This document shows, piece by piece, positions 4,075-14,426 of a stretch of 64,000 nucleotides of DNA. Below the pieces are notes generated by a model. The model did not search any database, was not told the origin of the DNA, and worked only from the letters and a program-made list of their open reading frames with translations. The first letter of the stretch is position 1. Each line of letters opens with the position of its first letter. The translations under genes and the position numbers were made by a program. Source of the DNA: Candidatus Puniceispirillum marinum IMCC1322 (GTDB lineage: Bacteria; Pseudomonadota; Alphaproteobacteria; Puniceispirillales; Puniceispirillaceae); contig NC_014010.1 in NCBI RefSeq assembly GCF_000024465.1, forward strand, positions 124,001 to 188,000. Direction: 5' to 3'.

Positions 4075-4173
4075 ATGCAACCAGCCAAAATGCAACCAGC
4101 CACGATACCACTTTCGAAGATACCACTGGCCACAATGCCACTTGCTACGATGCCACTGTCCGAGGTGCCGCTT
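4075..4173 (+). repeat. 15-bp minisatellite at the start of the exonuclease-fusion gene
   Basis: About 6.6 tandem units of 15 bp, each encoding a pentapeptide: MQPAK, MQPAT, IPLSK, IPLAT, MPLAT, MPLSE, VPL. Unit boundaries fall at 4075, 4090, 4105, 4120, 4135, 4150 and 4165. Four units begin with ATG and the last partial unit with GTG, so several possible start codons are spaced exactly one repeat apart. The repeat ends where the exonuclease domain begins. Confidence 0.85.
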
Positions 4174-7680: not shown

Positions 7681-7757
7681 GCGGGTGTAGCTCAGTCGGT
7701 TAGAGCGCCAGTTTGTGGCACTGGAGGTCGCCGGTTCAATCCCGGTCACTCGCCCCA
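7681..7757 (+). tRNA. tRNA-His (anticodon GTG)
   Basis: Full cloverleaf: acceptor GCGGGTG pairs with CACTCGC (one G-T), anticodon stem CCAGT/ACTGG closes the loop TTGTGGC with anticodon GTG, and the T-loop TTCAATC is present. The 3' CCA is encoded. A G at 7680 supplies the extra G(-1) opposite C73 that is characteristic of tRNA-His. Confidence 0.97.
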
Positions 7758-7875: not shown

Positions 7876-7960
7876 GCGGGCGTGGCGGAATTGGTAGACG
7901 CGCTGGTTTTAGGTACCAGTGGCGAAAGTCGTGGGGGTTCAAGTCCCTCCGCCCGTACCA
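7876..7960 (+). tRNA. tRNA-Leu (anticodon TAG)
   Basis: An 85-nt gene with a long variable arm, as expected for class II tRNA-Leu. Acceptor GCGGGCG pairs with CGCCCGT (terminal G-T), the anticodon stem CTGGT/ACCAG closes the loop TTTAGGT with anticodon TAG, and the CCA is encoded. It lies 118 bp downstream of tRNA-His and 153 bp before trigger factor. Confidence 0.96.
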
Positions 7961-8113: not shown

Positions 8114-9610
8114 ATGAATATTGCCGAAACCAAAAGTGAAGGTCTGGTGCGCGAATTCGCCATTACGATTACCGCCGCCGATATCGAAACCGAAACGCAG
8201 GCCAAACTTGCCGAAATTGCCAAAACCGCAAATATGCCGGGTTTTCGCCCAGGCAAGGTGCCGATGGCTGTTGTAAAAACGCGCTTTGGTGCGCAGGTAC
8301 AAGGCGATGCAATCAAAGCTGCGCTTGACGAAGGTGCGCGCAAAGCTGTTGATGATAATGGCCTTAATCTGGCTAGCCAGCCATCAGTAGATATTAAATC
8401 TTATGAAGAAGGCAAGGATCTAGAAGCGGTCTTTACCTGCGAGATTATGCCTGAGATCAAAATTCCTGATCTGTCTAAATTGTCTATCGAAAAACCAGTT
8501 TTGCCTGTTGATGAAGCGCAGATCGATGAGGCGCTGACCACGATTGCTACAGAGAACCGCCCAAGTGTCGAGGTGGCCAAGCCACGCGCCGCAAAAAAGG
8601 GTGATATTGTCGTCATTGATTTTGTTGGCAAGATTGACGGTGAACCGTTTGATGGTGGCGCTGCCGAGGGTCATTCGCTGGAACTGGGTTCAAATAGCTT
8701 CATTCCAGGCTTTGAAGACGGTTTGATTGGCGTCAAGCCAGGTGAAAGCCGCGATGTGAATGTGTCCTTCCCTGATGATTATCAGGCCCCGCATCTGGCT
8801 GGTAAAGCCGCCGTATTTGAAACCAAAGTTACGGCAATGCGTGAGCTTGGTGACGCAAAGGTTGATGAAGATCTGGCAACACGCCTTGGCTTTGAAACGA
8901 TCGATGCGCTTAAAGAAGCTGTGCGTGAGCAACTGGGTGCACAGCATGCAACCGCTTTGCGTCAGGCTGTGAAAAAGAACGTTCTTGATGGTCTTGCCGA
9001 TGGTGAAGCCTTTGACGTGCCGCCATCATTGTTCAAGCAAGAATATGAATCAGTGGCCCGGGCGATGAATCCGGCTGCGTCTGAACATAATCACGATCAC
9101 GATCACGATCACGATCATGATCACGACCACGCTCATCCAGCTGCGGATGAAGGCATGGATGATGATGCGAAAGCCGAAGCCACGTCAGTAGCTGAACGCC
9201 GTGTTCGTCTTGGTCTGCTACTGACCGAAATTGGCCGTGACAGTAAAATCGAAGTGACCGAAGCCGATACCCAGCGTGCGGTTATCGAAGAAGCGCGACG
9301 TTATCCGGGACAAGAGCAGATGGTCATGGAATATTTCCAGAAAAACCAACAAGCTCTGCAACAACTGGCTGGCCCCATCTTTGAAGATAAGGTTATCGAT
9401 TATATTCTTGAACTGGCGAAAGTGACCGAAGTAACAACCGACGTCGATACGCTGTATAAAGCACCTGAAGAGGTTGCCCCAGCTAAGAAAGCGTCCAAAA
9501 AGTCTGCCAAGACATCAGCAGCCAAGAAACCAGCTACCAAAACGGCGGTAGCGAAGAAAACAGCCGCTAAAAAGGCACCTGCCAAAAAAGCCGCAAAGAA
9601 GAAGTCATAA
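8114..9610 (+). CDS. tig: trigger factor with His-Asp tract and Lys-rich tail
   Basis: Ribosome-associated chaperone and peptidyl-prolyl isomerase acting on nascent chains. The N-terminal ribosome-binding signature GFRPGKVP lies near residue 40, the FKBP-type domain at about 155-245 (GDIVVIDFVGKIDG), and the C-terminal chaperone domain follows. At 498 residues it is much longer than the usual 430-450. The extra length comes from a histidine/aspartate-alternating tract at residues about 325-341 inside the chaperone domain, and from an Ala/Lys tail over the last 45 residues (repeated AKKxAxK) like histone-H1-type bacterial tails. The first may bind metal and the second RNA or the ribosome; both are inferences. 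Upstream of clpP-clpX-lon, with an intrinsic terminator following. Confidence 0.95.
   Translation: MNIAETKSEGLVREFAITITAADIETETQAKLAEIAKTANMPGFRPGKVPMAVVKTRFGAQVQGDAIKAALDEGARKAVDDNGLNLASQPSVDIKSYEEGKDLEAVFTCEIMPEIKIPDLSKLSIEKPVLPVDEAQIDEALTTIATENRPSVEVAKPRAAKKGDIVVIDFVGKIDGEPFDGGAAEGHSLELGSNSFIPGFEDGLIGVKPGESRDVNVSFPDDYQAPHLAGKAAVFETKVTAMRELGDAKVDEDLATRLGFETIDALKEAVREQLGAQHATALRQAVKKNVLDGLADGEAFDVPPSLFKQEYESVARAMNPAASEHNHDHDHDHDHDHDHAHPAADEGMDDDAKAEATSVAERRVRLGLLLTEIGRDSKIEVTEADTQRAVIEEARRYPGQEQMVMEYFQKNQQALQQLAGPIFEDKVIDYILELAKVTEVTTDVDTLYKAPEEVAPAKKASKKSAKTSAAKKPATKTAVAKKTAAKKAPAKKAAKKKS
9086..9135 (+). repeat. CAC-GAT tract encoding alternating His-Asp in trigger factor
   Basis: Near-perfect repetition of the hexamer CACGAT, with a few CAT/GAC variants, encodes eight or more histidines alternating with aspartate. 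Simple repeats of this kind can change length by slippage in whole codon pairs without losing frame. Confidence 0.85.
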
Positions 9611-9660: not shown

Positions 9661-9699
9661 AAGCGGGTTCAATATAATCTTGAACCCGCTTCTTTATTT
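9661..9699 (+). terminator. intrinsic terminator after trigger factor
   Basis: AAGCGGGTTCA (9661-9671) and TGAACCCGCTT (9681-9691) form an 11-bp perfect stem with a 9-base loop, followed by the T-rich TCTTTATTT. It lies 50 bases beyond the tig stop. The right arm also contains the -35 of the putative clpP heat-shock promoter. Confidence 0.8.
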
Positions 9700-9706: not shown

Positions 9707-9794
9707 AGTCTTAGTCAATATCGGTGCCTACCAATCTGAATTATCTTATTAGCTTGACGAGCTGCAAGCGACTCATCCAATGCAGGAGACTATA

Positions 9795-10445
9795 ATGCGT
9801 GATTATGAAGTAGCTAAATCGAACTTTGATCCGATGGCTAATCTGGTGCCAATGGTGGTCGAACAGACTAACCGTGGCGAGCGCTCTTATGATATTTTTT
9901 CGCGGCTTCTTAAAGAACGTATCATTTTCCTGAATGGTCCGGTTGATGATACCACTGCCTCGCTTGTATGTTCGCAGTTGTTGTTTTTGGAGTCCGAAAA
10001 CCCGACCAAAGATATTTCGATGTATATCAATTCGCCAGGTGGCATTGTGACCTCTGGTCTGGCGATATATGACACGATGGAATATATCCGCCCCGACGTA
10101 TCAACCGTATGTATGGGGCAGGCGGCGTCAATGGGCTCGCTATTATTGATGGCTGGTGCCGCTGGCAAGCGCTATTCATTGCCTAATGCACGGATTATGA
10201 CACATCAGCCATCAGGTGGCTTCTCGGGTCAGGCAAGTGATATTGAAATTCACGCCAGGGAGATTCTTGATTTGCGAAAGCGTCTTAATGGCATGTATGT
10301 CAAGCATACAGGCAAGACCCTGAAAGATGTCGAGAAAATCATGGAGCGCGACACCTTCATGACTGCCGAGGATGCCCAGAAATTCGGCCTGATTGATGAA
10401 GTTGTCGAGAAGCGCCCAGCTGGAAAAGATGAAAAGGCATCATAG
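9795..10445 (+). CDS. clpP: ATP-dependent Clp protease proteolytic subunit
   Basis: Serine peptidase subunit that forms the double-heptamer degradation chamber with ClpX or ClpA. From the ATG at 9795 it is 216 residues; I prefer this to the ATG at 9780 because GGAG sits 7 bases before 9795. The catalytic serine is in [11 protein letters not shown] (about Ser112), the histidine in MTHQPSGG (about His137), and the aspartate in the ERDTFM region (about 186). clpX follows after 190 bp and lon after that. A sigma-32-like promoter lies about 90 bp upstream. Confidence 0.97.
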
Positions 10446-10635: not shown

Positions 10636-11898
10636 ATGGCAAAATCAGAAGATAGTGATAAAAGCACGCTTTTCTGTTCTTTTTGCGGGAAAAGCCAGCA
10701 TGAAGTTCGTAAACTCATCGCTGGACCAACAGTATTTATTTGCGATGAATGCGTCGAATTATGCATGGATATCATCCGTGAAGAGCATAAAACCGCATTA
10801 TCCAAAAGTCATGACGGTGTTCCAACACCAGCTGATATCCTGGCCGTGCTTGATGGCTATGTCATTGGTCAGTCGCGGGCTAAGCGCGTTTTGTCAGTCG
10901 CTGTGCATAATCATTATAAACGTCTGGCAAATGCTGGCCGCACAGGCGACGTGGAAATTTCAAAGTCAAACATTCTGCTGGTTGGCCCGACAGGCTGTGG
11001 CAAGACTCTATTAGCGCAAACTTTGGCGCGGATGCTTGACGTGCCATTTACCATGGCTGATGCCACAACATTAACCGAAGCTGGCTATGTTGGTGAAGAC
11101 GTTGAAAATATCATTCTCAAACTTCTACAGGCCGCCGATTATAACGTTGAACGCGCCCAGCGTGGTATTGTCTATATCGATGAGGTCGATAAGATTTCAC
11201 GTAAAGCAGATAACCCGTCAATCACCCGCGACGTATCAGGAGAAGGTGTGCAGCAGGCGTTATTGAAGATTATGGAAGGCACGGTTGCGTCGGTACCGCC
11301 ACAAGGCGGCCGAAAGCATCCACAGCAGGAATTCCTGCAGGTTGATACAACCAACATCCTATTTATCTGCGGTGGTGCTTTTGCCGGACTAGATAAATTG
11401 ATTGCAGGCCGTGATACAGGTGCCGGTATTGGCTTTGGTGCTGATGTACGTGATCCTGACGATCGCAAGATTGGCGAACTTTTAGGGTCGCTGGAACCAG
11501 AAGATCTGATCAAATTTGGCCTTATCCCTGAATTTGTCGGACGTTTGCCGGTGATTGCGACGCTTGAGGATCTCGATGAAGAAGCTCTTGTCCGTATTCT
11601 GACCGAACCAAAAAATGCGCTTGTAAAGCAATATGAAAAACTGTTCGAGATGGATGATGTCCGGCTTGAATTCCGTGATGATGCCTTGCGGGCTGTGGCA
11701 CAAAAAGCGATTGCGCGTAAGACTGGCGCGCGTGGCTTGCGTTCGATCATGGAAAACATTCTTATGGAACCGATGTTTGATATCCCGACGAGTGGCGATA
11801 TTGAAGAGGTGGTCATCAACGGTGACGTTGTTGAGGGTGGGGCGCAGCCGTTGGTTGTTCATGCTAAAAAGTCCAAAGAGGCTGATAGCAGCGCCTAA
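10636..11898 (+). CDS. clpX: ATP-dependent Clp protease ATP-binding subunit ClpX
   Basis: AAA+ unfoldase that feeds substrates into ClpP; in alphaproteobacteria ClpXP also controls cell-cycle regulators. 420 residues, standard length. The N-terminal C4 zinc finger is visible (CSFCGKS followed by CDECVELC), then Walker A GPTGCGKT, Walker [10 protein letters not shown], and a late sensor-2 arginine region. The GGAG before the ATG supports the start. The 190 bp after clpP contain no obvious terminator, so clpX may be transcribed both from the clpP promoter and separately. Confidence 0.97.
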
Positions 11899-12005: not shown

Positions 12006-14426
12006 ATGTCAGACAAAGCTTCAATTGCGCTACCTATATTGCCGTTACGTGATATTGTTGTGTTTCCGCACATGATTGTGCCGCTGTTTGTCGGTCGTGA
12101 AAAATCTATCAAGGCTCTTGAAGCCGTGATGGCCGAAGAAAAGCAAATCATTCTGGTAACGCAGACTGAAGCTGATATTGAAGATCCAGATGCCGATGGA
12201 TTGCATCGTGTTGGTACCGTTGGATCAATTCTGCAACTTTTGAAATTACCAGATGGTGCTGTTAAGGTGCTGGTTGAAGGCGGTGAGCGCGTTGAACTGA
12301 ACCTTGATAGTTTGCGCGCGCAGGATGGTTTTCTGACTGTCGAAGCCATGCCTATGGAGCAGACTGGCGATCTTGGTGCAGATACCGAAGCGCTGGCCGC
12401 TACAACGGTTCAACAGTTTGAACAGTATCTTAAGCTGAATAAGAAAATAGCGTCAGAAGTGTTGAATGCGATCGAACAGGTCGACGAAGCTGACAAGATC
12501 GCAGATATGATCGCGTCACATCTATCCGTCAAGATCGACGAAAAGCAGGAATTGCTGGAAATTCTGGACGTTCACGAACGGCTAGAAAAAGTGTTTGGTG
12601 CGATGGAAACCGAAATTGGCGCCTTGCAGGTCGAAAAACGCGTGCGCAACCGAGTTAAGCGCCAGATGGAAAAGACCCAGCGCGAATATTATCTCAATGA
12701 GCAGATGAAAGCCATCCAGAAGGAATTGGGTGATGGCGAAGATGGTGGCAATGAGCTAGATGAGCTTGAATCCCAGCTTTCCGATTTGAAAATGCCGAAA
12801 GCTGCGCGCGAAAAGGCAGATGCCGAGTTGAAAAAGCTGCGCAATATGGGCCCCATGAGCGCCGAAGCAACCGTTGTGCGCAATTATCTGGATTGGATGC
12901 TGGCATTGCCCTGGAAAAAGGCAACGCGTCTTAAAAAGGATATTATCAAGGCGCGCGAAATTCTTGATGCAGATCATTATGGTCTGGACAAGGTTAAGGA
13001 TCGCATCGTCGAATTTCTGGCTGTTCAGCAACGTACGCGGAGCATGAAAGGCCCTATTCTGTGCCTTGTTGGCCCGCCGGGTGTTGGTAAAACGTCGCTA
13101 GGCAAATCGATTGCCCGTGCCACAGGACGTAAATATGTTCGTATGGCATTGGGTGGTGTTCGTGATGAAGCTGAAATCCGTGGTCATCGGCGCACCTATA
13201 TCGGGTCAATGCCTGGCAAGATCGTTCAGGGCATGAAGAAGGCGGAATCAAATAACCCGCTGTTTCTGCTAGATGAAATTGATAAATTAGGCGCTGACTG
13301 GCGCGGTGATCCAACATCGGCATTGCTTGAAGTTCTGGATCCAGCACAAAATAACAGTTTCGCTGACCATTATATGGAAGTCGAATTCGATCTATCGAAT
13401 GTGATGTTCGTTACAACAGCCAATACGCTGAATATGCCACAGCCGCTGATGGATCGGATGGAGATTATCCGTCTGTCTGGGTACACTGAAGATGAGAAGT
13501 TGGAAATTGCCAAGCGGCATTTGATCAACCGTCAGCTTGAAGATCATGGTTTAAAAGATGGTGAGTTGTCGATTTCTGACGATGCGATACGCATGATGGT
13601 TCAACGATATACACGGGAAGCTGGTGTTCGTAACCTTGAACGTGAAATCGCCAAAGTCGCGCGTAAAGCCGTGACCTCAATCGTAAGTGGTAAGTCTGTA
13701 TCGGCGGCTGTGACAGCGGCGAATTTGGAAGATTATCTTGGAGTGCCTAAATTCCGCCATGGTGAAATTGAGGCCGAGAATCAGGTTGGTGTCACCACTG
13801 GTCTGGCCTGGACAGAAGTTGGTGGCGAATTGCTGCAAATTGAGGCGGTTCGTGTTCCCGGCAAGGGCAAGGTTAGTGCGACAGGTAAATTAGGCGATGT
13901 GATGAAGGAGTCGATTCAGGCGGCTGAATTTTTCATCAAGTCACGTGCAGAATCATATGGTATTGATCTTGCGGACCTAGCCAAGCATGACCTGCATGTG
14001 CATGTGCCCGAAGGGGCAACGCCCAAGGATGGCCCCTCGGCTGGTGTTGCTATGGCAACGTCAATTATTTCCGCGGTTACAGGCATAGCTGTGCGCCGGA
14101 ATGTTGCGATGACAGGTGAGATCACATTGCGCGGGCGTGTACTTCCCATTGGCGGGCTTAAGGAAAAGTTACTGGCCGCCCTTCGCGGGGGTCTGACGAC
14201 GGTTCTGATTCCCAAGGAAAATGAAAAAGACCTTGTTGAAATTCCTGATAATGTCAAAGAAGGTCTGACAATCATTCCTGTTGCCATGGTTGATGAGGCC
14301 TTGTCAGCGGCGCTTGTCGAAGAACCATTGCCCAAATCCATTGGTGCCGGATCCGATTCAGACGCCCAAGCGGCTGTGAAATTACCTGAAGCAGGCGATA
14401 CGGGTGATGATTTTGTCGCCCATTAA
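12006..14426 (+). CDS. lon: ATP-dependent protease Lon
   Basis: Homohexameric cytoplasmic AAA+ protease that removes misfolded and regulatory proteins. 806 residues with the N-terminal LON substrate domain (about 10-205), Walker A GPPGVGKT near residue 360, and a C-terminal peptidase domain. The Ser-Lys dyad is at about Ser678 in DGPSAGVAM and Lys721 in GGLKEKLLAALRG. The C-terminus extends about 25 residues beyond the peptidase fold with an acidic tail. A short GGCCTG/CAGGCC hairpin follows at 14437-14451 but has a weak T run. Confidence 0.97.
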   Translation: MSDKASIALPILPLRDIVVFPHMIVPLFVGREKSIKALEAVMAEEKQIILVTQTEADIEDPDADGLHRVGTVGSILQLLKLPDGAVKVLVEGGERVELNLDSLRAQDGFLTVEAMPMEQTGDLGADTEALAATTVQQFEQYLKLNKKIASEVLNAIEQVDEADKIADMIASHLSVKIDEKQELLEILDVHERLEKVFGAMETEIGALQVEKRVRNRVKRQMEKTQREYYLNEQMKAIQKELGDGEDGGNELDELESQLSDLKMPKAAREKADAELKKLRNMGPMSAEATVVRNYLDWMLALPWKKATRLKKDIIKAREILDADHYGLDKVKDRIVEFLAVQQRTRSMKGPILCLVGPPGVGKTSLGKSIARATGRKYVRMALGGVRDEAEIRGHRRTYIGSMPGKIVQGMKKAESNNPLFLLDEIDKLGADWRGDPTSALLEVLDPAQNNSFADHYMEVEFDLSNVMFVTTANTLNMPQPLMDRMEIIRLSGYTEDEKLEIAKRHLINRQLEDHGLKDGELSISDDAIRMMVQRYTREAGVRNLEREIAKVARKAVTSIVSGKSVSAAVTAANLEDYLGVPKFRHGEIEAENQVGVTTGLAWTEVGGELLQIEAVRVPGKGKVSATGKLGDVMKESIQAAEFFIKSRAESYGIDLADLAKHDLHVHVPEGATPKDGPSAGVAMATSIISAVTGIAVRRNVAMTGEITLRGRVLPIGGLKEKLLAALRGGLTTVLIPKENEKDLVEIPDNVKEGLTIIPVAMVDEALSAALVEEPLPKSIGAGSDSDAQAAVKLPEAGDTGDDFVAH

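Follow-up and report, generated by a model that had tools for sequence, protein, structure and literature searches.

The stretch of DNA analysed here (the window) comprises 64,000 nucleotides of the genome of Candidatus Puniceispirillum marinum IMCC1322 (NC_014010.1, positions 124,001 to 188,000) and contains on its forward strand, at positions 8114..9610, a tig gene coding for a trigger factor of 498 aa, which is the sole trigger factor match in this single-contig genome of 2,753,527 bases. With respect to its identity, the product scores 410 bits against the curated equivalog model TIGR00115 (cut-off 180), and Trigger_N, FKBP_C (residues 157-238) and Trigger_C (residues 262-433) are all found above their cut-offs, i.e., it combines an FKBP domain with the arm-bearing C-terminal chaperone domain of a trigger factor. 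The N-terminal signature GFRxGxxP, which we take to be the ribosome-binding motif of trigger factors, is intact (GFRPGKVP, residues 43-50; 8240..8263, + strand), with G43, F44, R45, G47 and P50 invariant in an alignment of 57 sequences, and the protein presumably binds the ribosome. In a Foldseek search the top matches of the predicted structure were the E. coli trigger factor structures. A candidate terminator-like stem-loop, detected by a consensus scan only, follows tig at 9661..9691 (+), and the next genes on the same strand are clpP (9780..10445, TIGR00493), clpX (10636..11898, TIGR00382) and lon (12006..14426, TIGR00763), each above the cut-off of its model. The profile matches, the intact signature and this downstream neighbourhood together identify an ordinary trigger factor with two additions, a His-Asp tract and a Lys/Ala tail. 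In particular, it shares with the E. coli protein (1w26) the three domains, the ribosome-binding motif and the order tig-clpP-clpX-lon, but differs from it by an arm-1 loop that is about 19 residues longer and holds the tract, and by the 44-residue tail.

Immediately upstream of tig lie the genes for tRNA-His (7681-7754) and tRNA-Leu (7876-7957). The latter adjoins tig in distant Alphaproteobacteria as well, and the former does so in most of the SAR116 loci examined. A tie between the tRNA-His gene and the His tract was considered and could be ruled out, since tRNA-His adjoins tig also in the close relative L011, whose loop has no His. Elsewhere in the window, a 30-base tandem repeat in two copies (4099-4158) is found at the start of a 730-aa open reading frame with repetitive N-terminal residues.

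The His-Asp tract HNHDHDHDHDHDHDHAH comprises residues 325-341 (9086..9136, + strand) with nine His, in agreement with the preliminary description, which had placed its start at 9086 within the chaperone domain. It resides in a loop segment of about residues 302-361 (9017..9196, +), called arm-1 after trigger factor nomenclature, whose counterpart in the E. coli protein lies between residues 304 and 342 or thereabouts, the tract itself being located between the helix starting DVPPSLFKQEY and the helix containing RRVRLGLL. In an AlphaFold2 model with a mean pLDDT of 88.4, residues 324-349 have no secondary structure and are flanked by helices at 304-318/320-323 and 350-376; the mean pLDDT was 65 and 63 over residues 321-340, most of the remainder being above 90. 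At the DNA level the tract is an imperfect hexamer array (TRF: 9090-9135, 7.7 copies, 87% matches) of four CACGAT units with variants on both sides. Its peak of nine His per 20 residues is the highest of any frame in the window, the runner-up with eight being a spurious frame of 69 aa.

The second addition is a Lys/Ala-rich C-terminal tail of 44 residues (455-498; 9476..9607, +), 17 of them Lys, for which the model has a pLDDT below 50 (453-497) and which had been described beforehand as an Ala-Lys tail of about 45 residues. However, 49 of the 51 trigger factors from the order and 49 of the 134 distinct ones read class-wide have a tail of at least 40 residues with at least 20% Lys, so that a histone-like tail can be ruled out as a special feature of this protein; nor does the tail belong to the histone H1-like family HC2 (12.1 bits, cut-off 40). 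It may make weak contacts with nucleic acid (rRNA or DNA) or with the ribosome. The tract, likewise regarded at first as absent from standard trigger factors, recurs in 30 of the 51 trigger factors of the order. Three further trigger factors (L122, L222 and L105) have His-rich motifs in the C-terminal tail and not in the arm loop (HDHGDHGHDHEHDH; HVHGPDCGHDHD).

For the comparison of loops, a run was defined as alternating H-[DEN] of at least six residues in the arm-1 loop, and a His-rich loop as one with at least four His. In the loop tally, from which incomplete sequences (5 of 236 distinct ones) had been dropped, 30 of the 51 full-length trigger factors of the order carry a run, 34 have four or more loop His and 13 have none, and this recurrence refutes the possibility that the tract is a sequencing artefact or an oddity of a single assembly. 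The comparison of tig among related genomes that had been proposed shows that run length varies between species from 0 to 25 residues, the maximum being found in L048; length variation between strains, as originally envisaged, is plausible. Whereas other members of the genus have a His-Asp run, the close relative L011 has QNQDQDQDQDQD, with (QD)n in place of (HD)n, and thus an acidic loop can persist without His.

In the class, 184 of 192 genomes drawn had a trigger factor match and 135 trigger factors were read (134 distinct), namely the 30 best-scoring loci, then most others approximately by score, and five by way of the phylum sample. Of the 134, 12 carry a run, spanning nine family codes, a further 10 have at least four loop His (22 in total), and 92 have no loop His, the share of His-rich loops possibly being off, and probably too high, because the 49 class matches that were not read were mostly the weakest. 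Some of the 22 His-rich loops combine His with Cys (HVHGPNCNHDHDH, EHDRQHAHCEKDCGEDH). Outside the class, 40 trigger factors of the same phylum were read out of 88 matching genomes, and none of them had a His-rich loop or more than one loop His. In 57 trigger factors of the Rhodobacteraceae type, both His of a GHDH-type pair are present without exception, and 51 of the 57 have another His further on; the set was picked by the pattern AHQ[LIM][WY]H, which by itself accounts for the first two fixed His, whereas neither that pair nor the additional His is part of it. With His at fixed positions, this loop type is possibly a structured metal site.

The run-bearers are placed far apart in the trigger factor phylogeny. 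Explaining the HD label takes 13 changes in a FastTree reconstruction with 146 rows and 12 changes in an IQ-TREE reconstruction with 149 rows, in both cases with at least 10 on well-supported branches; both trees were built from part of the sequences, and the changes do not separate gain from loss. From these sequence comparisons, it appears that Alphaproteobacteria acquired the His-Asp add-on more than once, on several occasions. Among dipeptides repeated at least three times in the loops of 315 trigger factors, 40 of 44 cases are His-Asp, the others being one His-Glu, two Glu-Gly and one Asp-Gln, and in the same 315 proteins no such repeats were found in the regions before or after the loop. 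As many of them come from one order the 44 cases are not independent; together with the tree changes they nevertheless point to convergence on one chemistry. Neighbouring codons within the tracts differ in 183 of 312 His pairs and in 119 of 231 Asp pairs, and such a mixture of synonymous codons argues against fresh DNA slippage and against a fast-slipping repeat, being rather the pattern of old, protein-constrained repeats. A fresh microsatellite origin can therefore be ruled out for most lineages; the tract in the window, with its four CACGAT units, is purer than most.

The pattern HDHDHDH occurs in 59 genomes out of the 192 drawn from the class. Of 30 such loci inspected, 29 have a frame carrying it, comprising seven trigger factors and 22 other proteins, 20 of which were scanned for families after two (L276, L279) had been left out as likely wrong frames. 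Metal-related families account for 15 of the 20 (CobW and the nitrile hydratase alpha chain with five each, and ZnuA, ZrgA, UreE, CbiX and a heavy-metal ATPase); the remaining five comprise three other families (an ABC transporter ATPase, FtsX/MacB and RNase E/G) and two proteins without a family match. The nitrile hydratase alpha chains (L263, L274, L275, L281 and L286) have their HD runs near the N-terminus, and the RNase E/G protein (L271:1027-3021) has a long His-Asp stretch. In the genome under study the strict pattern (HD)3 occurs in tig only. To call tig the bearer of the only such tract of the genome would be too strong, though, as kindred loops that escape the pattern are found in its own ZnuA, whose (HDD)n loop is very long, and in its own CobW, with the His-rich loop HHHHHHHDDDPDHHHEHEHGH (HHHHHHH...HEHEHGH). 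The tig product thus resembles ZnuA and COG0523/CobW in having His-Asp-type runs, but these are dedicated metal proteins, ZnuA in addition being periplasmic.

A His-rich region is reported for about 40% of the COG0523 proteins analysed (PMC2770081), and SAR116 subclades are described as differing in their metal transporters, with znuABC sparse (PMC12262181). In our own sample a match to the ZnuA family, which is broader than znuABC, was obtained for 52 of 61 genomes of the order, and its presence showed no association with the tract (26 of 30 genomes with a run, 11 of 13 without loop His). The CobW family, found in 59 of the 61, is nearly universal and therefore uninformative in this respect.

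SlyD consists of a short FKBP domain with an insert-in-flap (IF) domain, has its metal-binding residues in a His-rich C-terminal tail and serves as nickel donor for hydrogenase. Like SlyD, the tig product is a folding helper that has an FKBP domain and a flexible segment rich in His, but here the tract lies inside the arm loop, and a protein of 498 aa with trigger factor architecture and a tail devoid of His is not a member of the SlyD family. The likeness to metal-binding SlyD tails drawn in the preliminary description thus holds as an analogy, given the metal-related families among the HDHDHDH proteins and the loops of the genome's own ZnuA and CobW, and fails as an assignment. One might go further and suppose that the tract has made the trigger factor a replacement for SlyD, i.e., a nickel donor for a nickel enzyme. 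This would fit the shared features just named and the lack of a SlyD match at 1e-15 in the genome; however, few genomes of the class have a SlyD-like protein (21 of 192), with or without a tract, and one tract genome, G175, has both. The absence of SlyD is therefore uninformative, replacement is not indicated, and we regard this explanation as very improbable.

Two explanations assign no function to metal. Neutral low-complexity drift would see in the loop a tolerant, acidic, disordered arm-1 spacer in which CAYGAY repeats slip in length without any metal function, in line with the complete loss of loop His in 13 of the 51 order relatives, the existence of a (QD)n version, the range of run lengths and the lower AlphaFold2 confidence of the loop. 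However, drift is contradicted by the share of His-Asp among the loop dipeptide repeats (40 of 44), by tract codons that are mixed instead of forming pure repeats, by the His fixed in the Rhodobacteraceae loop, and by the company of like runs elsewhere, mostly in metal proteins, and it is in our view unlikely. Alternatively, an acidic tract that is partly protonated near neutral pH might adjust how strongly the arm tip is charged and thereby influence the release of clients or a response to pH, any metal being incidental; loop segments free of His are also rich in Asp/Glu, and L011 has kept the acid without the His. But charge alone gives no reason for the alternating His, which the Glu- or Asp-rich loops lack, nor for the recurrence of His together with Cys in loop motifs, which renders charge tuning less credible still than drift.

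On balance, we consider it probable, with appreciable room for doubt, that this is a true trigger factor, able to bind the ribosome, in which the arm-1 loop has developed into a flexible metal-binding loop with several sites, acting as a labile metal buffer or donor. The reading of the tract as metal-binding is supported by its distribution, its convergence, the company of metal proteins and published peptide chemistry, while the loops without His in the order, the acidic His-free loop of L011 and the failure of ZnuA presence to track the tract speak against it. Chelation of a divalent metal by the side chains of alternating His and Asp would be weak and exchangeable, the metal most likely being Zn(II), with Fe(II), Ni(II) and Co(II) as further possibilities. 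A chaperone that receives nascent chains would thereby have a labile store of metal on its substrate-binding arms; this buffer might either absorb excess metal or pass metal on to nascent metalloproteins. Binding, the identity of the metal and any role in translation are thus put forward here as predictions.

As to the metal, free zinc in the cytosol is in the picomolar range. For the peptide Ac-HDHDHDHDH-NH2 at pH 7, table 6 of PMC11938343 gives Kd values of 1.77e-7 M for Zn(II), 6.27e-6 M for Fe(II), making it the best Fe(II) ligand of six peptides, and 8.41e-5 M for Mn(II). Its zinc affinity is hence weak in relation to picomolar free zinc, so that the tract might be zinc-free in normal cells and a passive role, overflow buffering, or iron instead of zinc have to be considered. 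Since the Fe(II) Kd of the peptide is close to the free cytosolic iron level, iron and not zinc could be the natural cargo. A literature search returned no report of metal binding measured on any trigger factor and, with most subscription papers lying outside its coverage, no description of a trigger factor with a loop rich in His. A further parallel is HspA of Helicobacter pylori, a GroES with a His/Cys-rich tail that is reported to act like a nickel sequestration domain (PMC7840056). Both would combine a general chaperone with a lineage-specific metal-sequestering segment, which is predicted in the case of the tig product; HspA, though, is a different chaperone that is not ribosome-bound, and its Cys-containing tail takes nickel.

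A bolder version holds that in Alphaproteobacteria trigger factor has become, on repeated occasions, a metal chaperone acting during translation, which would carry exchangeable Fe(II)/Zn(II) on its arm-1 tip where chains leave the ribosome and load metalloproteins as they emerge; we offer it as a speculation and consider it unlikely. The question of how new proteins obtain their metals, and of whether any metal is handed over before the chain has left the ribosome, has yet to be answered, and a repeatedly evolved loop with predicted metal binding on a ribosome-bound chaperone, close to the exit of the nascent chain, would offer a direct and testable system in which to address it, in an abundant group of bacteria from surface waters of the sea, which are poor in trace metals. 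Even if the loop were merely a passive buffer, it would still represent a new location for a metal-binding extension.
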